From positions 186,001-250,000 of the forward strand of contig CAJTFG010000002.1 in the NCBI GenBank assembly GCA_910575705.1: a DNA stretch of 64,000 bases. The letters run 5' to 3'. The stretch comes from Erysipelotrichales bacterium (GTDB lineage: Bacteria > Bacillota_I > Bacilli_A > Erysipelotrichales > Erysipelotrichaceae). The notes beneath the pieces were generated by a model. The model made no database searches. It had not been told where the DNA came from and saw only the letters and a list, made by a program, of their open reading frames with translations. Shown here piece after piece: positions 11,979 to 15,335 of the stretch; position 1 is the first letter of the stretch, and each line of letters starts with the position of its first letter. Both the position numbers and the translations under genes were made by a program.

Positions 11979-12006
11979 AATGATGCTGTCAGCATCATTT
12001 TTTTTA
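11979..12006. terminator. Bidirectional terminator between M42 peptidase and aroF
   Basis: Near-perfect inverted repeat AATGATGCTG (11979-11988)/CAGCATCATT (11990-11999) with A-run on the left and T-run on the right, suited to stop convergent transcription. It overlaps the last codons of aroF by a few bases. Confidence 0.8.
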
Positions 12007-13020
12007 CATATCTCTCCCGATGACATGAGCAATAGCTCTGCCTTTTTCAATAACTCTCTGGAATTTCTCCGGCTTCAAAGACTGCGCTCCGTCACTCCAT
12101 GCACATTCCGGCTGTTCATGCACCTCAATGATCAAACCATCCGCTCCTGCCGCGATCGCCGCTAATGACATGCTCTCTACTAACTTCCAATCTCCGGTTG
12201 CATGACTCGGATCGATGATGATCGGTAAGTGCGTCTTCTCTTTGATGATCGGTATCACACTTAGATCCAAGGTGTTTCTCGTATACTTCTCAAAGGTACG
12301 TATCCCTCTTTCACAGAAGATCACCTTATCGTTCCCTTCGCTCATGATGTATTCCGCCGCCATGATCCATTCTTCGATCGTATTGGCAAGTCCTCTTTTT
12401 AATAGCACGGGCTTGTCACATCGTCCTACCGCTTTTAAAAGATCGAAGTTCTGCATGTTTCTGGCACCGATCTGAATGAGATCGACATACTCGATGAATT
12501 CATCGAGTTTATCGGCGCTCATGAGCTCGGTAACGATCGGAAGACCGCTCATGCTTCTGGCTTTGGCCATAGCTAAGATGCCTTCGCTACCCATGCCTTG
12601 GAAAGCATAAGGGGAAGTTCTCGGCTTATAGGCGCCGCCGCGGAGCATGACACCGCCGGCAGCTTTGACTTGCTGAGCGATTCGGCAGATCATATCGTTT
12701 CCTTCGACAGAGCAAGGACCGCCGATAACGACGATGTTTTCTTTACCGCCGACTTTGATACCAGCTACATCGATAACGCTGTCTTCCGGATGAAACAGAC
12801 GATTCGCTTTTTTGTACGGCGCCGCGATCCTAGTAACGTTTTCTACAAAAGGATTGGCTTTGATCAGACGCTCATCGAGTTTACTGGTATCGCCGACAAG
12901 TCCGAAGACATTAAAGCTTTCTCCTTGAATTTCGGTAACGGATAATCCTCTGTTTTCAAATCCCTTGATCAGATTTCTGATGTCTTCTTTCGAAGCGTTT
13001 TTTTTAACTGTAATAATCAT
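12004..13020 (-). CDS. aroF: DAHP synthase (3-deoxy-7-phosphoheptulonate synthase), type I-beta
   Basis: This enzyme condenses PEP and erythrose-4-phosphate, the first step of aromatic amino acid synthesis. The 338-residue protein has an N-terminal ferredoxin-like regulatory domain (residues 1-70, IITVKKNASKEDI) followed by the barrel, with VIGGPCSVEG, RGGAYKPRTSPY, and the metal/substrate motif DPSHATGDW. The N-terminal domain is the kind that confers Phe/Tyr feedback inhibition in Thermotoga-type enzymes. It lies 14 bases downstream of the aroE-aroK fusion, so both are controlled by the attenuator at 14.3-14.5 kb. Confidence 0.95.
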   Translation of the reverse strand: MIITVKKNASKEDIRNLIKGFENRGLSVTEIQGESFNVFGLVGDTSKLDERLIKANPFVENVTRIAAPYKKANRLFHPEDSVIDVAGIKVGGKENIVVIGGPCSVEGNDMICRIAQQVKAAGGVMLRGGAYKPRTSPYAFQGMGSEGILAMAKARSMSGLPIVTELMSADKLDEFIEYVDLIQIGARNMQNFDLLKAVGRCDKPVLLKRGLANTIEEWIMAAEYIMSEGNDKVIFCERGIRTFEKYTRNTLDLSVIPIIKEKTHLPIIIDPSHATGDWKLVESMSLAAIAAGADGLIIEVHEQPECAWSDGAQSLKPEKFQRVIEKGRAIAHVIGRDM

Positions 13021-13034
13021 TGGTATGTTCTCCT

Positions 13035-14285
13035 TTATGTGTTCTGTATGATTTCTATGTAATGACGCTGTATTTCTTCCGCGGCTTCTTCTGCTGTTTT
13101 ATCGTTTTTTATGATGCAGTCAGCATATTGCCGATAGATAGGAAATCGATCATCATACATCTGATATACCTTTTCCCGGCTGCTGGATAAAGGGCGTTCT
13201 ATATCTTCCGAAACAAGCAGTTCTTTGGAACGATCCAAAAAGAAGAGAATGCCGTTTTGCTGCAGATGTCTTATATTGCTAGAGCGCTTGATGCAACCTC
13301 CGCCCGTGGCGATTACCTGATTATGCCGCATGGCAAAGCGCTTAGTGATCATCTCCTCCATATCGCGGAAATATCCTTCTCCGTTTTCGGCAAATAGTTC
13401 CCGAATGCTTTTTCCGCTTTCTTTTACGATCTCCTCATCGATATCGACAAAGTTTTTATGAAGCTTTTTGGCCATGATGTTGCCGACGGTAGTTTTTCCG
13501 CTGCTCGGCATACCGATCAGTACGAGATTGCTTTGCGTACAAAGGATGTTTCGATAGATGGTATGTATACTGCTATCGCTGATGCGGTTGCCAGTAAAGT
13601 GTTCAACGGCTGCTTTTGCTTGTGCGATGAGCATCTCCAATCCGCCGGCTGTAGGGATACCTAGTTCCTTTGCCTGCATGATAAGCGAAGTGCGAAGTGG
13701 ATTATAAATGATATCAACGACATGCTCCAAAGAAGGAAACTGCCGCAGATCGATCGGAGAGTCGTTATTAGGAAACATGCCGACGGGAGATGTGTTGATG
13801 ATGATTGCAGCATCACGATGACAGCGATAAGCTTCTTCATAGCGAATCGTCTCTTTGCTTGGTCGGCTTTTCACAAGGATGATCTCTTTAGCATGGAGAT
13901 CGTTCAACACGGCTTTGACTGCCTGTGCGGCGCCGCCGTTACCGAGCATTAAAACTTTTTTTCCGATGACCTGTATGCGATGCTGCCGCAAAGTATAGAG
14001 AAATCCGTCATAGTCCGTATTATAGCCGATAAGTCGTCCTTCGTTATGAACGATGGTATTTACGGCGCCGATCCTTTGCGCCTTATCATCGATGCCATCC
14101 AGGTAGGGAAGCACTGCTTGTTTATAAGGAATGGTGACATTGATGGCCCGGAACTCTCTTGCCGTCATGAATGTATGAAATTCCTTTTTGTTTAACGGGT
14201 ACAGATGGTATGTATAATCTGCCAGTTGCTCGTGTATTTCCTTTGAAAAGCTATGTCCTAATGTTTCACCGATAAGACCGTACAT
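13035..14285 (-). CDS. Fused shikimate dehydrogenase - shikimate kinase
   Basis: One 416-residue reading frame carries two successive shikimate-pathway enzymes. Residues 1-250 are AroE: GHSFS for shikimate binding, catalytic Lys in NVTIPYK (about 55), NTDYDG (about 90) and the NADP loop GNGGAAQA (about 115). Residues 252-416 are AroK: P-loop GMPSSGKTT (about 258-266), shikimate-binding DIDEEI, and ATGGGC (about 327-332). There is no frameshift or stop between them. I chose ATG 14285 because AAGGAGGACATGCAA places the ribosome site 8 bases away, whereas ATG 14291 is too close. It is the first gene after the attenuator and is followed by aroF. Confidence 0.93.
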   Translation of the reverse strand: MYGLIGETLGHSFSKEIHEQLADYTYHLYPLNKKEFHTFMTAREFRAINVTIPYKQAVLPYLDGIDDKAQRIGAVNTIVHNEGRLIGYNTDYDGFLYTLRQHRIQVIGKKVLMLGNGGAAQAVKAVLNDLHAKEIILVKSRPSKETIRYEEAYRCHRDAAIIINTSPVGMFPNNDSPIDLRQFPSLEHVVDIIYNPLRTSLIMQAKELGIPTAGGLEMLIAQAKAAVEHFTGNRISDSSIHTIYRNILCTQSNLVLIGMPSSGKTTVGNIMAKKLHKNFVDIDEEIVKESGKSIRELFAENGEGYFRDMEEMITKRFAMRHNQVIATGGGCIKRSSNIRHLQQNGILFFLDRSKELLVSEDIERPLSSSREKVYQMYDDRFPIYRQYADCIIKNDKTAEEAAEEIQRHYIEIIQNT

Positions 14286-14308
14286 TTGCATGTCCTCCTT
14301 TGTGTAAT

Positions 14309-14343
14309 AAAAAAAGCATCTTCGATATGGTTAGATGCTTTTT
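14309..14343 (-). terminator. Attenuator terminator in the aroEK leader
   Basis: AAAAAGCATCT (14343-14333, minus strand) pairs with AGATGCTTTTT (14321-14311) and a seven-T run follows. It lies between the leader peptide and the ribosome site of the aroE-aroK gene, so it would stop transcription before the structural genes. Confidence 0.8.
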
Positions 14344-14345
14344 AT

Positions 14346-14386
14346 GCTCCGAACAGAAAATTCCATGATGATGGATCGTTCGGAGC
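14346..14386 (-). promoter_or_regulatory. Pause/anti-terminator-type hairpin in the aro leader
   Basis: A perfect 9-bp stem GCTCCGAAC (14386-14378) with GTTCGGAGC (14354-14346) starts at the last base of the leader-peptide stop codon. A ribosome stalled at the Phe/Tyr codons would cover its 5' arm. An 8-base perfect complement also exists between the leader's start region (14428-14421) and the base of the terminator (14347-14340). Which pairing acts as antiterminator is not clear from inspection. Confidence 0.55.
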
Positions 14387-14424
14387 TATGAAAAGATAAA
14401 ATAAAAAGATACTGCTACATGCAT
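14386..14424 (-). CDS. Aromatic leader peptide (attenuation), 12 residues
   Basis: The frame ATG to TAG encodes MHVAVSFYFIFS. Four of the last six residues are aromatic: three Phe (TTT) and one Tyr (TAT) clustered at positions 7-11. A purine-rich AAAGAG lies seven bases before the ATG. The stop codon abuts a strong hairpin followed by an intrinsic terminator, just ahead of shikimate genes. This is the arrangement of classical ribosome-mediated attenuators such as pheL. It is too short for ordinary gene finding; I infer its role from composition and position. Confidence 0.7.
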   Translation of the reverse strand: MHVAVSFYFIFS

Positions 14425-14446
14425 AAAATCACTCTTTCTTGCGTAT

Positions 14447-14475
14447 AGCATATAACAAAGTTTAAAGAATTGCAA
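14447..14475 (-). promoter_or_regulatory. Promoter of the aro leader-aroEK-aroF operon
   Basis: On the minus strand, TTGCAA (14475-14470), a 17-base spacer and TATGCT (14452-14447). This would start transcription about 15-20 bases before the leader-peptide ATG. Each hexamer matches four of six consensus bases. Confidence 0.5.
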
Positions 14476-14582
14476 TAGTTATCTGCAAATACATGAAAGC
14501 AAATGTAAAAATTATGAAAATCTGAACATTTTAAGAGTCGCGGGTAATTTTTATGATATACTTATCAGGTAGGAGAAATCGG

Positions 14583-15335
14583 ATGAAGAAATTGGTATGT
14601 GTTAGAAATATTGTCTTAGGCGATGGAACGGTTCATATCTGTGTGCCCGTCGTAGCATCTGATATCGAAGAAATTCAGCGGCAATGCGGTTTGATAAAAC
14701 ACCTCCCTTGTGAACTTGTGGAAATCCGTATGGATTTTTTTACATCGCTTGAGGAAGCAAATCTGTGGGAAGCCTTTTATAGGATACGGGATATCCTTTT
14801 GGACAAAGCGCTGCTGGCAACGTTTCGCAGCCTTGAAGAAGGCGGCAGCAAACCGCTTTCCGATGAAGCCTATGAGCGCTTGTACACCGTGCTGATAGAG
14901 CATCATCTGTGTGATATGATCGATTTAGAGGCGTCACGTCCGCTGCATTTGACGGATGTGCTCCAACAGAAAGCTGAAAAGCAGGGTATTCATACGATTC
15001 TTTCCAGTCATGATTTTCAAGGTACGGCACCACGGGAAATGCTGATAGCGCGATTGCTGCAGATGGCAGAGCGAAAAGCGGATATCGTTAAACTTGCCGT
15101 CATGCCGCATACGGAAGAAGATGTCTTTTGTCTGATGGATGCGGTGCGATGCGTACATGCGAAGATCTCGCAGCCGGTGATCGCCATGGCGATGGGCGAT
15201 ATCGGCAGAAGGAGCCGCATAGAAGCGGCGAGCTTCAACTCTTGTGTAACATTTGCCTGTGCAGAAAAAACAAGTGCTCCGGGACAGATCCCCTGTGCGG
15301 AAATGAGATGTCTTTTGGATGAACACATCGGATGA
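14583..15335 (+). CDS. aroD: Type I 3-dehydroquinate dehydratase
   Basis: This enzyme converts 3-dehydroquinate to 3-dehydroshikimate, the substrate of the neighbouring AroE domain. The 250-residue protein has the class I signature: EIRMDFF, the catalytic His in ILSSHDFQGT, and the Schiff-base lysine in ADIVKLAVMP. The ATG at 14583 is preceded by TAGGAG. It is divergent from aroEK-aroF across a 290-base region that contains the attenuator; its own promoter (TATACT at 14557-14562) lacks a good -35. The nfn genes follow 44 bases downstream with no terminator in between. Confidence 0.94.
   Translation: MKKLVCVRNIVLGDGTVHICVPVVASDIEEIQRQCGLIKHLPCELVEIRMDFFTSLEEANLWEAFYRIRDILLDKALLATFRSLEEGGSKPLSDEAYERLYTVLIEHHLCDMIDLEASRPLHLTDVLQQKAEKQGIHTILSSHDFQGTAPREMLIARLLQMAERKADIVKLAVMPHTEEDVFCLMDAVRCVHAKISQPVIAMAMGDIGRRSRIEAASFNSCVTFACAEKTSAPGQIPCAEMRCLLDEHIG

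Follow-up and report, generated by a model that had tools for sequence, protein, structure and literature searches.

A putative Phe/Tyr-responsive leader-peptide attenuator, without a detectable classical antiterminator, before shikimate genes in Erysipelotrichaceae

The shikimate operon and its leader region

The stretch of DNA analysed here (the window; 64,000 nucleotides) carries on its minus strand a gene that fuses shikimate dehydrogenase to shikimate kinase (aroE-aroK, 13035-14291; Pfam Shikimate_dh_N and SKI), followed by the operon's second gene, which encodes a DAHP synthase (aroF, 12004-13020; Pfam DAHP_synth_1). A type I 3-dehydroquinase gene (aroD, 14553-15335, plus strand) diverges from the same intergenic region. 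Reading along the minus strand from 14475 to 14309, we found a promoter-like pair, a ribosome binding site (RBS), a 12-codon open reading frame, a hairpin (P1) and an intrinsic terminator (T), and beyond them aroE-aroK, which would be the controlled gene, and the DAHP synthase gene.

The promoter-like pair consists of a −35-like hexamer, TTGCAA (14470-14475, minus), and a −10-like hexamer, TATGCT (14447-14452, minus), with a 17-base spacer between them, and transcription would be expected to start near 14440 on the minus strand. When we compared the upstream DNA of relatives, many had a similar −35/−10 pair at the equivalent place, with TTGC-type boxes where the −35-like hexamer lies. A generic promoter scan did not list this promoter, which scored 8/12 matches against a threshold of 9, and a terminator scan missed T. 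The leader RBS is GAAAGAGTGAT (14428-14438, minus) and is conserved in relatives as AGGAGTGAT, which is complementary to the 3' end of 16S rRNA. The open reading frame (14386-14424, minus; ATG at 14424-14422, TAG stop at 14388-14386) encodes MHVAVSFYFIFS, in the codons ATG CAT GTA GCA GTA TCT TTT TAT TTT ATC TTT TCA TAG. Its aromatic run is F7 Y8 F9 I10 F11, in which Phe7, Tyr8, Phe9 and Phe11 are aromatic.

The G of the TAG stop is also the first paired base of P1 (14346-14386, minus), whose 9-bp outer stem pairs GCTCCGAAC with GTTCGGAGC. In the window's copy, P1 encloses a CCAT/ATGG inner hairpin and has a U-rich bulge on the 3' side; the six bases directly 3' of the inner hairpin (14357-14362, minus) occupy a slot in which the family consensus is TTNTTT. 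Three bases after P1 comes T (AAAAGCATCT...AGATGCTTTTTTT; 14309-14342, minus), which has the stem AAAAGCATCT-loop-AGATGCTTTT and a U-run at 14315-14309. The stretch from 14440 to 14309 folds at −37.9 kcal/mol, compared with −21.0 ± 2.9 for shuffled sequences (z −5.8). An earlier note on this DNA had described the promoter-like pair, the 12-codon frame with Phe/Tyr codons at positions 7-11, a stop abutting a perfect 9-bp hairpin, and a terminator leading into aroE-aroK and aroF; our reading agrees with all of these.

Conservation of the leader, its codons and its helices

To survey relatives, we searched named genomes and the window's GTDB family with the AroE-AroK protein and then read the upstream DNA. 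Orthologues were preceded by leader peptides that included MHTTTYETFYFYFR, MKQTSSKFYFYFR, MHLATSSVFYFYFQ, MKLHHSFFYCFTFR, MKNLISVSYFMFTFK and others, with P1 and T directly after each one; among the named genomes, Amedibacillus dolichus DSM 3991 (L001) and Faecalicoccus pleomorphus DSM 20574 (L008) carry the leader. A covariance model built from 11 leaders (R1) detected this layout in 30/273 genomes and 17/60 genera of the window's family, where about 12 genomes carry two copies. An evenly drawn sample of the order returned the same 30 genomes, every one of them in this family. All of the downstream operons that we inspected consist of shikimate genes, either aroE-aroK, or aroB-aroC together with aroE-aroK, aroA or DAHP synthase, or else DAHP synthase alone (L160 and L161). 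Outside the window's family (f1), no significant match to R1, or to a second model built from both operon classes (R2), proved real, and the class-wide R2 matches that we inspected there were mostly generic terminators, L194 excepted. L194 (G489:C7:53290-53389, plus) belongs to a different family of the class; its upstream open reading frame (uORF), MKKIFNSYFYYYFYYPRT, is packed with Phe and Tyr codons and lies directly ahead of a gene for an ABC-transporter-like substrate-binding lipoprotein, which may serve in the import of aromatic amino acids. A candidate leader of greater length, MNRVSLTETNRFYFYGYFQTGSLGHCFFPLPE, precedes a strong terminator and a DAHP synthase gene at L271 (genome G383), in family f13.

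The window's own genome contains a second copy of the leader (G000:C1:442569-442695; peptide MSKPFSYYYFQ), which R2 matches with an E-value of 4e-7 and which precedes aroB, aroC and a second DAHP synthase. The two DAHP synthases (window 12004-13020, minus; G000:C1:444821-445834, plus) are 91% identical and stand behind two versions of one leader, which points to either a recent duplication or gene conversion. The leuS T-box mentioned in the earlier note is real (RF00230; 20937-21126, plus) and is the only T-box in the window. Among the 18 T-box matches in the genome, none lies near either aro leader.

Across the 42 leader peptides that we read, the aromatic run was kept against the stop in every case (42/42), and no relative had retained the hairpins without aromatic codons. 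With the last codon set aside, Phe and Tyr fill 77% of the final six positions, compared with 6% elsewhere, and the same 42 peptides contain no Trp codon; this composition suggests that the leader would report Phe and Tyr and not Trp. The stop codon, counted in the window (14386-14388) and 41 relatives, is TAG in 33/42, TAA in 7 and TGA in 2. The use of its G to start P1 explains this excess of TAG only in part; termination at UAG that is slow or otherwise special may contribute. We also rejected the idea that P1 stimulates frameshifting on the Phe/Tyr run, as a conserved open frame was seen in neither −1 nor +1.

The two helices are conserved in position and in pairing. In the 42 leaders, the start of P1 falls at −3 to +5 bases relative to the stop codon's end, and the gap between P1 and T is 2-8 bases in 41/42. 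Covariation, which for P1 was seen in 39 relatives, amounted over P1 and T to 109 double-change cells, compared with 25 ± 4 in shuffled and 8-15 in slid controls, counts that are inflated by fitting the alignment to the P1/T structure, a bias that the slid controls share only partly; the covariation score was 0.498 versus 0.18. P1 and T are real helices. The sequence of the P1 outer stem is free to vary (for example, GCCCTGA, GCCTCA, CATCATAAAG and CGTTATAAAG), and the interior is conserved as an RCCA...UGG stem followed by the U-rich bulge. No family in Rfam 15, Phe_leader included, matches the leaders. The layout of the leader is more than chance: aromatic codons, RBS, P1 and T persist together across about 20 genera and before two different shikimate operons, which strongly supports the earlier proposal that Phe/Tyr leader-peptide attenuation would control a shikimate operon in a Firmicute whose other leaders include T-boxes.

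Antiterminator search, putative pause signal and proposed mechanism

We searched for alternative pairings by comparing the complementarity of pairs of segments within each leader with that between different leaders. In this test the arms of P1 (z −15) and of T (z −10) stood out. The 5' arm of T showed no excess complementarity to the leader open reading frame, the 5' UTR or P1, and even a deficit, both overall and in each of the two operon classes separately. No competitor helix covaried in 31-32 leaders. The same test applied as a positive control to 12 Tyr-run leaders (f11 and f15, described below) recovered alternative helices (leader with middle, z −3.9; middle with terminator, z −4.6). 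The method can thus find such helices, which are absent or undetectable in the leaders of the window's family. Folding with the ribosome footprint masked, which the earlier note had proposed as a check, lent no support to an antiterminated state: at equilibrium T formed in nearly every state, the exceptions being L084 and, with the ribosome at the stop, partly L089.

Three specific pairings were rejected as antiterminators. The 8-base complement that the earlier note had pointed out between the leader start and the foot of the terminator (TTTTATGC/GCATAAAA) is present in the window, but as an antiterminator it is not conserved, with no excess complementarity in relatives. An extension of P1 by CUUU:AAAG has its nucleotides conserved in the aroE-aroK group and is absent from the aroB group. 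For poly-U capture of the kind proposed for Staphylococcus aureus ilvD, pairing of the P1 5' arm with the T 3' arm or U-run was not significant. Two weak leads came from the same analysis. Leaders are slightly more complementary to their own T 3' arm than to those of other genomes, at a P value of 0.004 that is uncorrected and from positions that are scattered. The other lead is at the last Phe codon, where a CUUU could form base pairs with an AAAG lying at T's foot; the wobble position that precedes this codon is C in 14/14 cases in the aroE-aroK group, compared with 8/19 for other Tyr codons (Fisher P = 0.0004).

A different kind of signal emerged within P1. Downstream of the inner UGG, the next six bases follow the consensus TTNTTT (22, 21, -, 28, 31 and 30 of 31), in a comparison whose anchor required TTT within four bases of UGG. 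The exact motif lies directly after the P1 inner hairpin in 15 of 31 leaders versus 0.7 under a shuffle null, which leaves a possible role for the same U residues in pairing with the A-rich 5' arm. In the window itself the sequence is AATTTT, a weak match (3 of 5). In Bacillus subtilis, the NusG pause motif TTNTTT occupies positions −11 to −6 and the pause hairpin lies 11-12 bases upstream of the RNA end (PMC12288461), a geometry that P1 and the motif share in the leaders. An Asn-Thr pair in NusG is reported to recognize this motif (PMC12288461); the NusG of the window's genome, which carries AWYIVRNTPGVTGFIG and reads VRNTPGVTGF, has the pair. The conservation of this NusG-type pause signal supports the view that it probably makes polymerase wait for the ribosome. 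To our knowledge, a pause-like signal of this kind has not been described for amino-acid leaders.

Judging from these comparisons, we consider it highly probable that the region acts in cis as a Phe/Tyr-sensing leader-peptide attenuator of transcription. Polymerase would start near 14440, and a ribosome would begin the 12-codon leader at its strong site. A shortage of charged tRNA-Phe or tRNA-Tyr would halt the ribosome in the aromatic run; with an adequate supply it would reach the stop. Since the foot of P1 lies at the stop codon or only a few bases from it, how much of the P1 5' arm is covered would depend on where in the run the ribosome stands: given a typical ribosome footprint, P1 would be free when the ribosome is on the first aromatic codon, and 5-12 bases of the arm would be hidden when it has reached the final codons or the stop. 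Ribosome position would in this way set when P1 folds, with termination or read-through at T as the outcome, and a pause inside P1 would give the ribosome time. In trp-type leaders, stalling frees the segment just after the stop; by analogy, folded P1 would be the induced state, and a shortage of Phe or Tyr would raise expression of aroE-aroK-aroF. We found nothing that explains how P1 would disable T, and our search for a mutually exclusive antiterminator did not find one. In function, then, the element would be a Phe/Tyr leader-peptide attenuator without a detectable classical antiterminator. One tentative way in which it could work is that a NusG-dependent pause at P1 holds polymerase and ribosome position acts through P1 and polymerase, with no base-pair swap.

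Other explanations fare less well. A classical pheL-type attenuator, in which the 8-base pairing or CUUU/AAAG would serve as a mutually exclusive antiterminator, seems unlikely to us. In its favour are the wobble bias, the extension of P1 into T by CUUU/AAAG in the aroE-aroK group and the slight complementarity of leaders to their own T 3' arm; these are outweighed by the loss of CUUU/AAAG in the aroB group, the lack of a covarying competitor helix that the same test does find in the f11/f15 leaders, and the formation of T under most ribosome masks. It is very improbable that an FYFYFR-type peptide itself stalls the ribosome on a small molecule, as in TnaC- or Erm-like arrest. The aromatic run is C-terminal and adjoins the stop, as such a peptide would have it, but Phe and Tyr occur in no fixed order or number (FYFYFR, FYFIFQ, YYYYR, FYCFTFR, YYFYF and YFMFTFK), which fits codon supply and not a specific arrest sequence. 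Least credible is an incidental open reading frame beside a P1 that serves as a metabolite-binding riboswitch or as the target of a protein: the conserved RCCA...UGG stem and U-rich bulge would suit it, but the lack of an Rfam match, an outer stem whose sequence is unconstrained, as that of a ligand pocket would not be, and the conservation of the frame, its start signals, its aromatic codons and its stop at the foot of P1 all argue against it.

Relation to known systems

Firmicutes are the textbook case for control by T-boxes and TRAP. Transcription in B. subtilis has been described as functionally uncoupled from translation (Johnson 2020, as cited in PMC9226507), and leader-peptide attenuation should therefore be disfavoured. 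Here, in a family that uses T-boxes as well, control of the shikimate genes would fall to leader peptides, and a conserved pause-like signal lies where polymerase would meet the ribosome, which raises the question of whether programmed pausing restores the timing needed for attenuation. If a pause-based mechanism without an antiterminator were true, it would show how attenuation timed by the ribosome can work in Firmicutes, in which RNA polymerase is believed to run ahead of the ribosome.

The pheL/pheA and pheM/pheST leaders of Escherichia coli combine a Phe-rich leader peptide with overlapping helices that exclude each other. The leaders of the window's family share with them the Phe-rich peptide, a stop beside a hairpin and a terminator before the gene, but exclusive helices were not found in this family and Tyr codons weigh as much as Phe. 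In S. aureus, the ilv leader-peptide attenuator reads Leu/Ile codons and has been proposed to antiterminate through pairing of the poly-U tail (PMC5794164). It too has a leader peptide in a Firmicute, a terminator about 50 bases after the stop and a terminator stem that stays intact in the proposed antiterminated fold, whereas the Leu/Ile codons and poly-U tail pairing are its own. Leader-peptide attenuation has also been reported for Bacillus hisS/hisZ (PMC2965389).

Phe/Tyr uORFs before shikimate genes have likewise been predicted. uORFC-13-1, a predicted Phe uORF upstream of aroF, was reported only in Acholeplasma and metagenomes (PMC8632094); by its description it has in common with our leaders a Phe-codon uORF, a promoter and RBS, an extra paired element, a terminator and a DAHP synthase downstream. 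Fig. 6b of PMC6429828 (Stav 2019) presents two shikimate candidates with Phe and Tyr uORFs, as in the window's leader; they were found in an analysis of five genomes, none of the window's family, and the likeness lies in the uORF and its place before shikimate genes. The earlier note's remark that such leader peptides are rarely described in Firmicutes needs tempering because of these predictions (PMC8632094, PMC6429828) and the attenuators already reported (PMC5794164, PMC2965389).

The Tyr-run leaders that served as our positive control stand before DAHP synthase genes (L232-L239 and L241-L243 in f11; L269, L270 and L286 in f15). Their peptides include MFLNTFAYYYYYQM, MKKAVYYYYAYLI and MLFTLVGFSYFYYYFK, and downstream of the peptide come AAGGAATG..CATTCCTTTTT, another element resembling AAGGAATG and, apart from these, a terminator. 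Base pairing links the leader to the downstream element and spans 11 bp in L270 and L286. These leaders are probably of the uORFC-13-1 kind, and we infer that they belong to Acholeplasma. Their RNA layout, with covarying alternative helices that look like a multi-state classical attenuator, differs from that of the window's family, and neither R1 nor R2 matches them significantly. The lack of a classical antiterminator in one family and the alternative pairing in others of the same class make a natural comparison.

Our literature search, which had most subscription journals outside its scope, found no report of the leader in the window's family. What is new is an attenuator-like leader that fails the antiterminator test and carries a pause-like signal; Phe/Tyr shikimate uORFs themselves had been predicted before. 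Close parallels to this combination are the vmlR and tlrB leaders of B. subtilis (PMC9226507, PMC12288461). They respond to antibiotics, and vmlR, unlike the leaders described here, has a defined anti-antiterminator and antiterminator, but they share with the leaders of the window's family the same three components: a uORF with predicted or reported ribosome stalling, a NusG TTNTTT pause motif and an intrinsic terminator.
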